Shown piece after piece: positions 50,642 to 55,879 of a DNA stretch of 64,000 nucleotides. Where the stretch lies: contig NZ_JQLN01000005.1 in assembly GCF_000744225.1 (NCBI RefSeq), positions 2,317,001 through 2,381,000 on the forward strand, written 5' to 3'. The position numbers and the translations under genes are program-made. How positions within the stretch are numbered: the stretch's first letter is position 1; the number at the start of each line of letters is the position of its first letter. The stretch comes from Kitasatospora mediocidica KCTC 9733 (GTDB lineage: Bacteria > Actinomycetota > Actinomycetes > Streptomycetales > Streptomycetaceae). The notes below the pieces were generated by a model. That model had not been told where the DNA came from. It worked only from the letters and a program-made list of their open reading frames with translations, and ran no database searches.

Positions 50642-50908
50642 TCAGCAGTCGTCGTCGTGGTGCATCGCCTCGGCGTTGACGCAGGTGTTGCCGAAGGCCG
50701 GGTTGAGCAGGCCGACCACGTCCACCGAGTTGCCGCAGAGGTTCACCGGGATGTGGATCGGGACCTGGGCGTTGTTGCCGGAGAGCACGCCGGGGGAGTT
50801 GGCGGCGACGCCCTCCGCACCCGCGCTGGCGGCGGCCGCACCCGCGCCGCCGAGGATCAGGCCGACCGCCGCGGTCGACAGGATCGCGAGCTTCTTGGTC
50901 TTCTGCAT
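50642..50908 (-). CDS. Short chaplin 1 (with acidic Cys tail)
   Basis: An 88-residue precursor of a short chaplin, a secreted amyloid-forming surfactant of the aerial surface. The signal peptide MQKTKKLAILSTAAVGLILG ends near AAAA; the chaplin domain shows SPGVLSGNNAQVPIHIPVNL, the Cys pair (NLCGNS and GNTCVN) and LLNPAFGN. Unusually, the chain continues past TCVN with AEAMHHDDDC, adding two His, three Asp and a third Cys. AAGGAG lies 7 bases before the ATG. It is expected to be BldN-dependent. Confidence 0.95.
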   Translation of the reverse strand: MQKTKKLAILSTAAVGLILGGAGAAAASAGAEGVAANSPGVLSGNNAQVPIHIPVNLCGNSVDVVGLLNPAFGNTCVNAEAMHHDDDC

Positions 50909-50942
50909 GGGGATCTCCTTGTGGATCATCACGAGAGGGGAC

Positions 50943-50974
50943 GCCGCGCGCGCGGGGCGAACCGGGCGCGCGGC
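50943..50974 (-). terminator. Possible terminator of chaplin 2
   Basis: A 9-bp perfect stem (50943-50951 with 50966-50974) between the two minus-strand chaplin genes; no T-run. Confidence 0.5.
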
Positions 50975-51002
50975 GGTTGCCGCGAGGGCGAACGGGTCGC
51001 TG

Positions 51003-51245
51003 TCAGCCGTTGTTGACGCAGGTGTTGCCGAACGCCGGGTTGAGGATGCTGATGACGCCGATGCTGTTGCCGCACACGTTGACCGGGACGTGCACCGGGA
51101 CCTGGATCAGGTTGCCGGAGAGCACGCCGGGGGAGCCGGCCGCGACGCCCTCGGCGCCCGAGCTGGCGGCGGCCGCACCCGCGCCGCCGAGGATCAGGCC
51201 GGCCGCGGCGACGGAGAGGACGAGGGACTTCGAGAACTTGCGCAT
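51003..51245 (-). CDS. Short chaplin 2
   Basis: An 80-residue short-chaplin precursor: signal peptide MRKFSKSLVLSVAAAGLILG, mature chain with GAEGVAAGSPGVLSGNLIQV, PVHVPVNVCGNSIGV and NPAFGNTCVNNG, ending right after the second Cys as usual. The two Cys form the conserved disulfide. GGAGG lies 10 bases before the ATG. Divergent from chaplin 3. Confidence 0.95.
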   Translation of the reverse strand: MRKFSKSLVLSVAAAGLILGGAGAAAASSGAEGVAAGSPGVLSGNLIQVPVHVPVNVCGNSIGVISILNPAFGNTCVNNG

Positions 51246-51622
51246 GAGAGTTAATCCTCCGTTGATTTCCAGGGACGGTATTTCCCGGGCACCGGGCGAA
51301 ACCGGAAACCTGCCCGAAAGGTTTCGGGCAGCCGCCGATTGTCACTCAGGCGGCGGATGCCCGAACTTCGGTCTCGACGCCGATTGCGGGTCGGACCCTT
51401 TTCTGTACGCCCGGTGCACCCGGCCGCGTGCGTGCGTGTGGAACAGCTTCCGGAAGGGAGAACGACGGCGGGCGCGACGGGAAACGGGTGGCGGTGCGCT
51501 GGGATCGCGGGCGCAGCGGGATACGTACAAACGGGTGATGGTCGAGGCCTGGGCGCAACCTCCGTGCCGCGGGCGTCGTTGACGATCATGCACGCATCGT
51601 GCTCAGTAACAAGGAGACTCAA
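51246..51622. other. Divergent chaplin promoter region
   Basis: About 377 bases between two divergent chaplin genes. It should contain two developmental promoters, but no sigma-70-like pair is evident, which would fit the use of BldN. Long reading frames crossing it have no ribosome binding sites and are not called. Confidence 0.5.
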
Positions 51623-51862
51623 ATGAGCGTCAAGAAGGCTGCCGTTGTCGGCGCCGCCGTGGTCGGCATCGTGGCCGCTGGTGCCGGGACCGCCCTCGCC
51701 AGCTCCGGTGCCGAGGGCGCCGCTGTCGGATCGCCGGGTGTGCTCTCCGGCAACCAGCTCCAGGTTCCGATCCACATCCCGGTCAACCTGTGCGGCAACA
51801 GTGTCGACGTGATCGGCCTGCTGAACCCGGCGTTCGGCAACACCTGCGTCAACCAGGGCTGA
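51623..51862 (+). CDS. Short chaplin 3
   Basis: A 79-residue short-chaplin precursor: MSVKKAAVVGAAVVGIVAAG signal peptide ending near ALA, then SSGAEGAAVGSPGVLSGNQL and IPVNLCGNSVDVIGLLNPAF with GNTCVNQG. Its domain is nearly identical to chaplin 1 without the acidic tail. AGGAG lies 7 bases before the ATG. Its own strong terminator follows. Confidence 0.95.
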   Translation: MSVKKAAVVGAAVVGIVAAGAGTALASSGAEGAAVGSPGVLSGNQLQVPIHIPVNLCGNSVDVIGLLNPAFGNTCVNQG

Positions 51863-52056: not shown

Positions 52057-53709
52057 GTGATCAGGAAACGCATCTCAGGTCCCCCCACCGCCCTGCTCGC
52101 CGTCGCCGCCCTGGTCGCCGCCCTCGGGTTGGCCACCGGCGCCCCGTCGGCCCAGGCCGCCGCCGGCTCCAGCAGCACCACCCGAGCCGACCTGCCCAGC
52201 GCGATCGTCTCGATGGGCGACAGTGCGATCTCCGGCGAGGGCGCCGGAACCGACACCAGCGACGGCTACTTCGCCGGCACCGACGGCCCGTCCAACTACT
52301 GCCACCGGCACCCGCAGTCCGAGATCTTCGACACCGGCCTGACCGGGGTCACGCCCGTCGACCTGGCCTGTTCCGGCGCGCAGACCGGTGACCTGACCAG
52401 CGACCCGACGCTGGCGAAGATCACCGGTGGCGGCAGCGGCGACTACGGCGAGCCCAAGCAGGACGTCCAACTCGCCCAGACCGCGGCCAAGTACAACGTC
52501 AAGATGGTCGTCGTCACGATCGGCGCCAACGACAACTTCGACTTCAGCGGGATCATGGAGAGCTGCCTCGGGCAGTACTTCCCGATTCCCAAGTCGCAGG
52601 GCTGCCGGGACACCATCGGCAGCGCGGCCATCACCCAGCGGGCCGCGGCCGTCATCCCGAAGGTCACCGCGGCGATCACCGACGTCCGCCAGACCATGCG
52701 CAACGCCGGCTACGCCGACGGCTCCTACCAGCTGGTCTACCAGTCGTACTTCACCCCGATCACCCCCGACATCCGCGCCAACGACTACGGGAGCAAGATC
52801 GCGCAGGGCTGCCCGGCCTACCCCGAGGACCTCGCCTGGGGCCACAACTGGGTGGTCCCGACCTTCGACGACGCGCTGCGCCAGGCGGCCGAACAGGTCC
52901 CGGGCGTCCGGTTCCTGGACGAGCGCCGGGTCAGCTACGGCCACGAGGTCTGCGCGGAGTGGACCACCTCGCCGTACGAGTACACCAACGGCGACGTCAT
53001 CGACCTCTCCGAGAACACCCGCAACGGCTGCGACTTCTCGGTCGGCATCCTCTCGCTCTGCGAGAACGAGATCCGGCAGTCCTACCACCTGCGGGTCGCG
53101 GGCTACCAGGGCGAGGGCGCCTGCCTGGGCGCGTTCTACACCGGTGCCGCGCAGCAGGAGGCGTACTGCACGCTCAACCAGTCCGACGGCACGTCGCTGA
53201 TGCCGCTGACAGCCGGTCAGCCGTTCAACGACGCCCCCGAGGACGGCGCCTGGTACCAACTCACCAGCGCCGCCAACGGCAAGGCACTCGACCTCTCGGG
53301 CGGCGGCACCTACGGTGACAGCACCAACGGCCGCACCGCGATCAGCTACCCGGCCACCGGCGGGCTCAACCAGTCCTTCGTCCTGGAGGCCAAGCCCGGC
53401 GGCAGCTACGAGATGGACTTCAGCGGCAACCGGAACATGTGCCTGGACGCCACCGGCGCCTCCACCGCCCCCGGAACCGTCCTGGAACAGTGGAGCTGCA
53501 ACGGCGGCGCCAACCAGCACTGGGTGATCGAGCCGGCAGGCGGCGGCCAGTACAAGCTCGCCGACTCGGCCGACACCACCAAGGTCGCCACCGTCAGCAC
53601 CTCCGTCGACGGCCAGGGCAACCCGGTCATCCAACTCGCCCCCGACACCGGCGCATCCACCCAGCTCTGGGGACTCACCAAGCTCGGCATCGTCTACCTG
53701 CACGGCTGA
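52057..53709 (+). CDS. Secreted SGNH-family esterase/lipase with ricin-type lectin domain
   Basis: A 550-residue exported enzyme. Signal peptide MIRKRISGPPTALLAVAALV ends near AQA. The SGNH hydrolase domain (about 45-370) has the block I Ser in SAIVSMGDSAISGEGAG (Ser56), a Gly in LACSGAQTGDL, Asn in VTIGANDNFDF and an Asp/His region near QSYHLRVAGYQ; many Cys suggest disulfides. The C-terminal part (about 390-550) is a ricin-B lectin with QSFVLEAKPGG, NMCLDATGAST and NQHWVIEPAGG (QxW type). It probably removes acyl groups from a glycan or lipid it binds. GTG 52057 follows AGGAG by 6 bases. Confidence 0.93.
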   Translation: MIRKRISGPPTALLAVAALVAALGLATGAPSAQAAAGSSSTTRADLPSAIVSMGDSAISGEGAGTDTSDGYFAGTDGPSNYCHRHPQSEIFDTGLTGVTPVDLACSGAQTGDLTSDPTLAKITGGGSGDYGEPKQDVQLAQTAAKYNVKMVVVTIGANDNFDFSGIMESCLGQYFPIPKSQGCRDTIGSAAITQRAAAVIPKVTAAITDVRQTMRNAGYADGSYQLVYQSYFTPITPDIRANDYGSKIAQGCPAYPEDLAWGHNWVVPTFDDALRQAAEQVPGVRFLDERRVSYGHEVCAEWTTSPYEYTNGDVIDLSENTRNGCDFSVGILSLCENEIRQSYHLRVAGYQGEGACLGAFYTGAAQQEAYCTLNQSDGTSLMPLTAGQPFNDAPEDGAWYQLTSAANGKALDLSGGGTYGDSTNGRTAISYPATGGLNQSFVLEAKPGGSYEMDFSGNRNMCLDATGASTAPGTVLEQWSCNGGANQHWVIEPAGGGQYKLADSADTTKVATVSTSVDGQGNPVIQLAPDTGASTQLWGLTKLGIVYLHG

Positions 53710-53715
53710 CAGCTT

Positions 53716-53758
53716 CTGCGGTGCGGGAAGTCGGCATCCCCGACTTCCCGCACCGCAG
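53716..53758 (+). terminator. Terminator of the esterase gene
   Basis: A 19-bp perfect stem (53716-53734 with 53740-53758, loop CATCC), 7 bases past the stop. Confidence 0.9.
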
Positions 53759-53794
53759 TTGCTATGCCGGGCTCCACAGAGCAAAACTGACGAC

Positions 53795-54208
53795 GTGGCT
53801 ACGTGGAACTGGAGCGACGCAGGCGGACCGGACGACCCCATGGTGGTCCGATCGGTGGAGCTGCGCCCCGACCCGCCCGCCGACCCCCGGCACACCCAGA
53901 TCGTCATCAACGCCGACCTGCAGCGCCCGTTGGAGGACGGCGCCTACCTCGACGTCACCGTCAGGCTCGGCCGGGTCAAACTGGTCGCCCACAGTTTCGA
54001 CCTCCTGAAGGAGCTCCAGGCGAACGGAACGGTCTCACCCTGGCAGCACCACATCCCGCCGGGCCCGCTCACCCTCGCCTTCCCCCCACTGCGCTCCCTG
54101 CTCAACGACACGCGCCCGGGCAGGTACGTCGTCCTGGTGAACGCCCACGCCGCCGAGGACGAACTGCTCGCCTCCGTCTACATCACGGTCGACTTCGAAG
54201 CGCCGTAG
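53795..54208 (+). CDS. ML-domain-like lipid-binding protein
   Basis: A 137-residue protein without signal peptide. The order of segments fits the MD-2-related lipid-recognition (ML) fold known from PG/PI transfer and NPC2-like proteins: VVRSVELRPDPPADPRHTQI, LEDGAYLDVTVRLGRVKLVA with HSFDLLKEL, LTLAFPPLRSLLNDTRPGRY and VVLVNAHAAEDELLASVYIT. The paired Cys residues of eukaryotic ML proteins are absent. ML proteins are uncommon in bacteria (recollection). The GTG start has no strong ribosome binding site. It lies between the esterase and the MerR fusion, probably as a separate unit. Confidence 0.7.
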   Translation: MATWNWSDAGGPDDPMVVRSVELRPDPPADPRHTQIVINADLQRPLEDGAYLDVTVRLGRVKLVAHSFDLLKELQANGTVSPWQHHIPPGPLTLAFPPLRSLLNDTRPGRYVVLVNAHAAEDELLASVYITVDFEAP

Positions 54209-54211
54209 CGC

Positions 54212-54242
54212 TTGACCCTCACGCGGCGTGATGCCGCATTCT
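54212..54242 (+). promoter_or_regulatory. MerR-type promoter with operator in a 19-bp spacer
   Basis: TTGACC (54212-54217), 19 bases, CATTCT (54237-54242). The spacer holds the dyad CTCACGC-G-GCGTGAT. Long 19-bp spacers with a central dyad are the mark of MerR-activated promoters. The start would fall on the GTG at 54250, 7 bases past the -10, giving a leaderless mRNA. Confidence 0.85.
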
Positions 54243-54249
54243 CGGGGGC

Positions 54250-55365
54250 GTGGAAGAACACCTGACCGTGGGACGCGTGGCCGAGCTCGCCGCAGTGAGC
54301 GTGCGCACGCTGCACCACTACGACGAGATCGGCCTCGTCCAGCCCTCCGCGCGCACCGCAGCCGGCTACCGGGCCTATGCGGCGGGCGAGGTGGAGCGAC
54401 TGCGGGAGGTCCTGGCCTACCGGCGGCTTGGCTTCGGACTGCGCGAGATCGCGGATCTGGTGGACGACCCGAACACCGACGCGGTGGCACACCTGCACCG
54501 GCTGCGCGGCCTGCTGTTGGAACAGCGCGATCGCGCCGCCGCCACGGTGACCGCCATAGACCACGAACTGGAGAGACGGGCGATGGGGATCAGGACGACG
54601 CCGGAGGAACAACTCAAGGTGTTCGGAGCAGAGTTGTACGAGGTCATCGGCTCCGCCTACCCGGCGACCCGGCGCACCGAGCCGCGGATCGCCGAACAGG
54701 TCTGGGCCGCCCTGGGCGACGCCCGGACGGTACTCAACGTCGGCGCCGGCACCGGCTCCTACGAGCCCCCCGGCCGTGAGGTGACCGCAGTGGAACCGTC
54801 GGCCGTCATGCGGGCCCTGCGCCCCGCGGGCGCCGCGCCGTGCGTGGACGCGAGCGGCGAGCGCCTCCCGTTCGCGGACCAGTCCTTCGACGCCGCAATG
54901 GCCTTCAGCACCATCCACCACTGGCAGGACCCGATCGCCGGCCTGCGCGAGATGCGACGGGTGGCCCGGCGCGTGGTGGTGTTCACGCACGACGCCAGCG
55001 ACGTCGGCTGGCGCAACCGCTTCTGGCTCAGCCGCGACTACCTCCCCGAGGTGGCCGCCATGGTCGCCGGCCGCCCCTCGGTCGACCGGCTGGCCGCCGC
55101 CATCGGCGCCCGCCTGGAGCCCGTCCTCATCCCCTGGGACTGCGCCGACGGCTTCTTCGAGGCCTACTGGCGCCGCCCCGAGGCCTACCTCGAAGAACAC
55201 GTCCGCCGCGCGGTGTCGGTCTGGACCCGCGTCGGCCCCGAAGCCGAACAGCGCGCCGTGACCAACCTCCGCGCCGACCTCGCCTCCGGCCGCTGGGCCG
55301 ACCGCAACCCCGAGCTCGTCGCCCTCGACGCAGCCGAACTCGGCCTGCGCCTGCTCATCGCCTGA
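54250..55365 (+). CDS. MerR-family regulator fused to a SAM-dependent methyltransferase
   Basis: A 371-residue fusion. Residues 1-75 are a MerR DNA-binding domain (LTVGRVAELAAVSVRTLHHY, DEIGLVQPSARTAAGYRAYA), followed by a dimerisation coiled coil (LHRLRGLLLEQRDRAAATVT). From about residue 155 a class I methyltransferase follows: VLNVGAGTGSYEPPGREVTA, VEPSAVMRAL, CVDASGERLPFADQSFDAAM and STIHHWQDP. Separate MerR regulators fused to binding domains (TipA type) are known; here the effector domain is enzyme-like, so SAM or a methyl acceptor may be the signal. It has its own MerR-type promoter and is leaderless. Confidence 0.9.
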   Translation: MEEHLTVGRVAELAAVSVRTLHHYDEIGLVQPSARTAAGYRAYAAGEVERLREVLAYRRLGFGLREIADLVDDPNTDAVAHLHRLRGLLLEQRDRAAATVTAIDHELERRAMGIRTTPEEQLKVFGAELYEVIGSAYPATRRTEPRIAEQVWAALGDARTVLNVGAGTGSYEPPGREVTAVEPSAVMRALRPAGAAPCVDASGERLPFADQSFDAAMAFSTIHHWQDPIAGLREMRRVARRVVVFTHDASDVGWRNRFWLSRDYLPEVAAMVAGRPSVDRLAAAIGARLEPVLIPWDCADGFFEAYWRRPEAYLEEHVRRAVSVWTRVGPEAEQRAVTNLRADLASGRWADRNPELVALDAAELGLRLLIA

Positions 55366-55396
55366 TCCCCCCCTCAGAATCCTTCGGCCTCCCGGC

Positions 55397-55879
55397 TCAG
55401 GGCCAGACCAGGCAGTACAGCTGGTGCCCCGCGTCGTGCAGCCGGTTCGCGAAGTCCTGCCACTCGTGCAGCATCGAGTAGATGACGAACGCGTCGCGCG
55501 GCCCGCGGCGGTCGGGGACGGTGGACCAGATGAACGCGGCGGCGCCGAGCTCGGTCTCGTCCGCCTTGCGCAGGGGCTCGACGACGGTGTGCGGGAGCTG
55601 CACGACGGCGTAGTCGGGGTGCAGGACGACCAGTTCCAGCGGCGGTACCTGGTGCAGCGGGACGCCCTGGATGCCGGTGAGCACCATCGCGCTCATGGTC
55701 TCAGGTTTGATCTTGGTGGAGAGGTGGCCGTTCGGTGAGCCGCTGGTCTCCATCAGGTCGCCCAGGCGGCCGAGCGAGCCGAGCTCGCCGGCGTCCAGCC
55801 CCAGGCCGCCGGGGCCCAGCGCTGTGGGGACTCTCGCGGCGGTGGCGCGGTCGGGTGCGCCGAAGTACTTGTAGGTCAC
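55397..55879 (-). CDS. Conserved hypothetical protein
   Basis: A 160-residue soluble protein starting GTG (VTYKYFGAPDRATAARVPTA) with AAGGA 9 bases upstream. It has a Gly/Leu-rich middle (GLGLDAGELGSLGRLGDLME) and a conserved-looking C-terminal half (VPPLELVVLHPDYAVVQLPH, TELGAAAFIWSTVPDRRGPR, FVIYSMLHEWQDFANRLHDA). I recall similar proteins in streptomycetes but no function. The frame stays open upstream to 56119 with a plausible but biased extension. It is convergent with the MerR fusion and divergent from hemL. Confidence 0.75.
   Translation of the reverse strand: MTYKYFGAPDRATAARVPTALGPGGLGLDAGELGSLGRLGDLMETSGSPNGHLSTKIKPETMSAMVLTGIQGVPLHQVPPLELVVLHPDYAVVQLPHTVVEPLRKADETELGAAAFIWSTVPDRRGPRDAFVIYSMLHEWQDFANRLHDAGHQLYCLVWP

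Follow-up and report, generated by a model that had tools for sequence, protein, structure and literature searches.

The window, as we call the whole stretch of 64,000 nucleotides analysed here, comes from the soil actinobacterium Kitasatospora mediocidica KCTC 9733 and carries a gene for a small ML-domain protein at 53795..54208 (plus strand, stop codon included). The frame opens with a GTG codon and encodes 137 amino acids, with no cysteine and no signal peptide; the open reading frame, its coordinates and both peptides quoted in the original prediction are exact. A close relative, encoded in Kitasatospora sp. MAA4 (L002), shares 84% protein identity with the window ML protein. DNA similarity between the two loci is confined to 53794-54197, that is, from one base before the GTG to eight bases before the stop codon. 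Over 134 codons, the two ML genes differ at 18, 9 and 46 first, second and third codon positions, respectively, the third-position bias being already present within codons 1-15 (0, 1 and 4 differences), and dN/dS is 0.095/0.714. The boundary of DNA similarity, the codon-position bias and the dN/dS values together indicate that the frame is constrained and that the GTG start is very probably right. The window ML frame is a real gene under purifying selection; upstream of its start, neither a TANNNT -10 hexamer nor a clear ribosome-binding site was found.

Genomic context and mobility of the ML gene

The ML gene lies in an accessory insertion (53750..55395, its right edge falling at 55371-55397 depending on the genome) that also holds a gene encoding a MerR-type DNA-binding domain fused to a SAM methyltransferase domain (54250..55365, plus strand, with a start at 54250 or 54268). 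On the left, the insertion adjoins a core gene for a secreted GDSL-like esterase with ricin-type lectin domains (52057..53709, plus strand), present in 62 of the 70 genomes of the genus, the GDSL matches of which fall below the Pfam cut-offs; on the right, the core neighbour encodes a 160-aa protein with no Pfam match (55397..55879, minus strand). Beside the esterase gene, at 50642-51862, the window also encodes three small secreted proteins, two on the minus and one on the plus strand, which resemble chaplins in their LSGN and VPIHIPVNLCGNS motifs.

All seven sister genomes examined, which are those with the esterases most similar to the window's among the genomes compared, lack the stretch 53750-55395 at this site, and their core flanks are colinear with those of the window. 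One of them (G209, locus L081) has only 15 bp between the core flanks; judged by eye from ORF starts, G003 carries a GNAT-like ORF at the site and G177 a large NRPS-like ORF. The region 53710-55396 is, as a side observation, a variable insertion site, with other content or almost nothing in each of the seven sisters. A 19-bp perfect inverted repeat with a 5-base loop, seen by eye, lies at 53716..53758, and sister similarity ends inside it (53749-53754) in five of the seven genomes and just before it (53709-53710) in the other two. The repeat probably acts as an end signal for the core esterase gene; as it is followed by no run of T, no terminator is predicted there.

The secreted esterase that the original prediction placed upstream is real, yet it is a core gene beside which the ML gene has been inserted, and the functional link implied between the two is not supported: among 30 esterase loci checked, out of 64 matching places, the window's own is the only one with an ML gene within 1.5 kb, and we rejected the esterase as a partner. 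The MerR-methyltransferase was rejected likewise, with an ML gene within 1.5 kb at one of 27 loci, again the window's own; these loci are all the matching places, some of them being pieces of one gene. This second gene is itself an accessory gene at scattered sites, with matches in 22 of the 70 genomes of the genus. A search for defence systems with PADLOC gave no link either: its match to mad1 (3e-7, residues 2-46) covers the MerR domain, and the ML protein gives no match. As a separate observation, the MerR-methyltransferase gene is split into two pieces in G224, and so is the second copy of it that G150 carries. Since the ML gene works without the esterase or the MerR-methyltransferase, its gene context gives no ligand.

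A conserved neighbourhood was also sought around the other ML genes and set aside: with the pairs between L020 and L023 (syntenic by eye) left out and the neighbours annotated in part, no recurrent partner appears among the matches listed, the shared families being scattered (ABC transporter parts, regulators and others). Two neighbours deserve mention in their own right. A 676-aa protein of no known family and with no Pfam match lies near the ML gene in two loci (L024:2005-4035 and L033:9151-11181); this proximity may be due to chance, as relatives of the protein are common on Streptomyces plasmids (14 records). In addition, a ubiquitin-conjugating E2-like protein is encoded about 3 kb from the ML gene at L024:4411-4725 (minus strand, with a longer frame to 5001), in G277, a genome of the same family. 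It scores 99.9 bits against PF00179 and matches the UbcH5 family in the PDB at E 1.4e-24. The catalytic cysteine of E2 enzymes lies in a GSIC motif, which is replaced by GAIV in this protein. A relative of it is present, unannotated, on the Kitasatospora aureofaciens plasmid NZ_CP020568.1.

Comparison with the sister genome G222, which carries the 84% identical relative, bears on how the ML gene came to its present place. The two genomes are 93-95.5% identical around the window locus, but the ML relative of G222 sits on a different contig, and the window genome has the neighbourhood of that relative without an ML gene in it. Between window and G222, dS is 0.71 for the ML genes versus 0.11-0.16 for four core genes. 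Because the ML value is far above the core values, the ML genes of the two sisters were probably acquired in separate events or drawn from a diverged pool. As a single-gene unit of the Streptomycetaceae accessory pool, the ML gene seems to pass from one related bacterium to another. The idea in the original prediction of a transferred gene thus stands for transfer between bacteria, on the strength of the insertion, the other site in the sister and the dS values, whereas a eukaryotic source is something that we infer.

Membership of the ML family

As a single sequence, the window protein matches the Pfam ML domain (PF02221) marginally, its 22.8 bits lying just over the cut-off of 22.7. Searches against solved structures give a much stronger match: phmmer finds yeast NPC2 (6r4m) with E = 2e-13, and a profile built from 12 bacterial relatives finds yeast NPC2 at E = 1.1e-26 (97 bits). 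With the same profile, the N-terminal segment of the human GM2 activator aligns weakly with the start of the bacterial proteins (E 0.04). Profile search against the ML family, proposed beforehand as a check, therefore recovers the family, and the ML resemblance read from the bare sequence is borne out by Pfam, phmmer and the bacterial profile alike.

The relatives point in the same direction. All 17 members of alignment A2 match PF02221 at E <= 1, the best of them at 8.3e-17, and all 12 matches of the family-level PF02221 search exceed the Pfam cut-off. Two further relatives, of which stretches were scanned with Pfam, gave 17.6 bits (L042, below the cut-off) and no match (L089). In the six-frame PF02221 searches of the family, order and phylum samples (E <= 0.001), the window genome is not among the matches. 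The bacterial proteins have the segments PDPP, GAY-DV-VKLG-IKL-DL and PIxPG in common. The window protein belongs to their long group, in which the NPC2 segment order is kept; in five short members (115-125 aa), much or all of the loop-helix segment seen in the longer proteins is missing.

Predicted fold

The AlphaFold model of the window protein (pLDDT 89.1, pTM 0.82) is an ML-type beta-sandwich. In a Foldseek search with this model, yeast NPC2 chains occupy ranks 1-9 (best E 3.9e-10), followed by the GM2 activator, MD-1 and MD-2, and ML proteins fill ranks 1-24 in Foldseek and ranks 1-9 in VIA-align. The best VIA-align match is yeast NPC2 (6r4n_F; Z 11.9, rmsd 3.0, 128 residues aligned), with bovine NPC2 at Z 11.6 and Der f 2 at Z 10.5. 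Structure prediction, the second check suggested at the outset, thus returns the ML beta-sandwich with NPC2 as its closest counterpart. Unrelated domains also score well in VIA-align, among them the Wzt carbohydrate-binding domain (Z 9.9) and mannosidase domains (Z 9.0-9.6). With unrelated domains reaching Z 9-10, a lipid site is not proved by the fold alone, and what sets NPC2 apart is the match in sequence.

In this regard, the resemblance could in principle be convergent, an immunoglobulin-like beta-sandwich joined to a chance sequence match. Such a reading would draw on the Pfam score, which lies just 0.1 bit above the cut-off, and on the many beta-sandwich domains that match the model at Z 8-10. 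It is largely refuted by the phmmer and profile matches, both of which lead to one specific family, and the uniformly above-threshold scores of the family search and the segments shared by the bacterial members also speak against it; we regard it as extremely improbable. By homology and fold, far beyond chance, the window protein is a member of the ML family (PF02221).

Absence of a cysteine set and of a signal peptide

The absence of cysteines and of a signal peptide, noted in the original prediction, is borne out and extends over the relatives examined. In residues 1-35 of the window protein there is no stretch resembling a signal peptide, the best 12-aa mean hydropathy being -0.06, a value left unchanged by the use of an upstream TTG start (53759). 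None of 24 bacterial ML proteins has a hydrophobic N-terminus (best 12-residue hydropathy <=1.53), compared with 2.47-2.87 in five secreted or lipoprotein control sequences. Export signals were judged here by hydropathy, the starts of the relatives being chosen at the conserved beginning of the domain and an upstream start being tried for the window gene only. The set of 24 leaves out L044, L087, L091 and L094, which are fragments or have no clear start, as well as L047 (same place as L002) and L095 and L096 (same as L088); L088 itself is truncated by a contig end.

None of these 24 proteins has six cysteines, the number that the three disulfides of NPC2 require; they contain 25 cysteines in total and at most four each. 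Among the first 17 bacterial proteins collected, seven have no cysteine, eight have one and two have two.

The start regions of the genes are in line with this picture. A TANNNT -10 hexamer ending 6-7 bases before the start codon occurs in nine of the 24 family genes versus 12 of 270 predicted control genes (Fisher p 5e-6), the controls being genes of the same loci, ML genes included, with starts from a rough gene caller. In Streptomyces lividans, the -10 element is TANNNT and about 20% of genes are reported as leaderless (PMC6742748). The placement observed here would be the layout expected of leaderless transcripts. Where present, the hexamer at the start supports the start chosen and leaves no space for a signal peptide.

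Some of the remaining cysteines may be relicts. Four of the 25 lie exactly on cysteine columns of the yeast protein or the GM2 activator, where 0.59 would be expected, and 49 of 20000 simulations reach four; L032 has cysteines at both columns mapped to NPC2 Cys8 and Cys121. In L020, L023 and L026, a cysteine that is by eye equivalent to that of yeast LSC lies two columns off in the alignment and was left uncounted. These positions weakly suggest a disulfide-bearing ancestor. As the sequences are related and hence not independent, we treat them as a hint, and their use as proof of a eukaryotic origin was set aside.

The loss of disulfides and signal peptide fits the reducing cytosol, and the window ML protein is, in our view, very probably cytosolic. 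Alternatively, it might leave the cell by a non-classical route and scavenge lipids outside, next to the secreted esterase. The adjacency of the two genes would be in keeping with such a role, as would the normal secretion of eukaryotic NPC2, nine curated examples of which are tabulated with signal peptide positions (PMC6979364). Nevertheless, all 24 relatives lack a hydrophobic N-terminus, given the starts chosen, the disulfides that one would expect of an extracellular member are absent, and the esterase has an ML gene at its side in the window alone among the 30 loci. We consider export very unlikely.

Distribution of the bacterial family

The bacterial profile A1 finds matches in 11 of the 70 genomes of the window's genus, Kitasatospora. 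For a second genus of the family, 295 genomes were sampled and nine match; six of these nine carry a divergent third group, and one (G1176) has a 51-position fragment. Several of the genomes recovered with profile A1 had themselves contributed sequences to it. A search with PF02221 alone recovers 12 of 297 genomes in the family sample (the window genome being missed) and three of 293 in the order sample, all three already among the 12. The phylum sample gave no match in 396 genomes, a result that is not evidence of absence, as the same search also missed the window genome. In the class sample, where only some candidates were scored, the single match in 345 genomes is the window genome. Outside the family but within the order, a match was found in G041 (E 4.6e-5). 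Another weak match, in G011 (L007, E 2.5e-4), was dropped as spurious, its frame reading by eye like a dehydrogenase.

Matches also occur in four plasmid records, the fourth being weak (E 9e-3), and one plasmid-encoded relative, WP_331745949.1, is already annotated as 'ML domain-containing protein'. No match was found in phage records searched with the relative L023, and a search of viral contigs with A1 gave 24 pattern matches, none of which was confirmed. Among viral models, Foldseek found a single match under E 0.001, a protein of 610 residues that aligns with an rmsd of 15.9.

Two further observations concern the divergent third group, made up of L088, L090, L092, L093 and L089, which matches A1 and has a conserved 'RVTC' segment. 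The scanned stretch of its one member tried, L089, gives no Pfam match. In addition, G1309 carries one divergent ML gene three times, on three contigs (L088, L095 and L096), with equal scores and an identical translated ML part.

The bacterial members are 22-40% identical to the window protein, except for two that are closer, the one at 84% and a third member of the same subclade, in G207, at 47%. As the members differ strongly from each other, the bacterial ML family is not young. Overall, it is a patchy family that shares a cysteine-poor, signal-less form.

The divergence within the family could also be read as the mark of an ancient bacterial lineage ancestral to the eukaryotic ML proteins, instead of a gene taken from a eukaryote. 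However, only a minority of Streptomycetaceae-type genomes carry the gene, with a single match in the order beyond this family, and the phylum sample yielded none, with the caveat on that search given above. The single cysteines on eukaryotic disulfide columns, and the pair in L032, weakly suggest a disulfide-bearing ancestor as well. We hold an ancestral bacterial lineage to be unlikely, and a eukaryotic origin, followed by loss of secretion and disulfides, to be the likely course.

Proposed function and origin

Work on ML proteins has dealt with eukaryotic lipid handlers that are secreted and disulfide-bonded, with roles in lysosomal cholesterol export and LPS sensing and as mite allergens. 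Our findings allow us to propose, as the likely reading, that the window protein is a bacterial member of the ML family (NPC2 / PG-PI transfer) that has turned cytosolic and serves as a carrier or buffer of a hydrophobic ligand, encoded by a mobile single gene. The protein would start at the mature N-terminus of the ML domain, and its beta-sandwich would fold without the three disulfides. Between the two sheets, it would hold one hydrophobic molecule, which may be a phospholipid (PI or PG), an isoprenoid or hopanoid, or a lipid-like metabolite, and it would act as a soluble cytosolic carrier or buffer for that molecule. By analogy with yeast NPC2, we lean towards binding of a hydrophobic ligand, with less assurance than we attach to the cytosolic location. 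Actinobacteria make phosphatidylinositol, so that PI or PG is a reasonable first candidate.

A different possibility is that the ML fold has been kept and the ligand pocket lost, the protein now being a binding or regulatory protein, for instance an adaptor for a protein or a cell-wall sugar. This would be compatible with the neighbours, annotated in part, among which none recurs that points to lipid metabolism, with the carbohydrate-binding domains found among the close folds (Wzt, Z 9.9) and with the five short members deprived of all or much of the loop-helix. The window protein, however, is one of the long group and retains the NPC2 segment order, and we judge loss of the pocket to be rather improbable.

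As to how a cytosolic ligand carrier of this kind would have arisen, we offer a tentative scenario, to which we give somewhat less than even weight. An ancestor of the streptomycetes would have captured a eukaryotic, probably fungal-type, NPC2/PG-PI transfer gene and shed its signal peptide and disulfides, turning the product into a cytosolic lipid shuttle. The gene would now spread as a minimal single-gene unit of about 450 bp, in many members with its own promoter at the start codon.

If this is true, the Streptomycetaceae have at their disposal a lipid-transfer protein of eukaryotic type that is soluble and works inside the cell. A disulfide-free cytosolic bacterial branch would show that the ML fold is stable without disulfides, would offer an easily expressed ligand-binding model and would suggest that antibiotic-producing actinobacteria have a soluble traffic of lipids still to be explored. 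The domain and the fold are already known. In the open-licence literature, searched by titles and abstract starts, no paper on bacterial ML proteins is among the matches listed, and within that scope the cytosolic, disulfide-free bacterial branch appears to be undescribed.

Comparison with known lipid-binding proteins

Bacterial proteins thought to carry sterol lipids have been described in methanotrophs, namely BstA, BstB and BstC (PMC10942540). These have folds that differ from the ML fold, namely those of an RND transporter, a periplasmic binding protein and the T component of a TRAP transporter. Closer in kind is the relative WP_331745949.1 from a Streptomyces virginiae plasmid, a protein of the same bacterial family with 36% identity to the window protein and, like it, with no cysteine and no hydrophobic N-terminus. 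It is encoded on a linear plasmid among neighbours unlike those of the window gene, and no study of it is among the literature matches listed.

The mammalian and mite ML proteins (mammalian NPC2, the GM2 activator, MD-1/MD-2 and the group 2 allergens) are 9-20% identical to the window protein. NPC2, Der f 2, Der p 2, MD-1 and the GM2 activator nevertheless share its fold at Z 8.8-11.6, as does MD-2 by Foldseek. The disulfides of NPC2 are given as Cys8-121, 23-28 and 74-80 (PMC6979364); it is secreted with these three bonds, whereas the window protein has neither cysteines nor a signal peptide.

The best match to the window protein in both sequence and fold is yeast NPC2 (6r4m/6r4n, deposited as phosphatidylglycerol/phosphatidylinositol transfer protein), which has the same domain and segment order over 120-128 residues, at 28% identity. 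The yeast chain is longer (201 residues) and carries cysteines at DLC, LSC and ITC of the matched part, in contrast to the window protein, which has none and no signal peptide. Yeast NPC2 is described as having a larger pocket than human NPC2, one in which it binds sterols, phospholipids and sphingolipids (PMC11512107).
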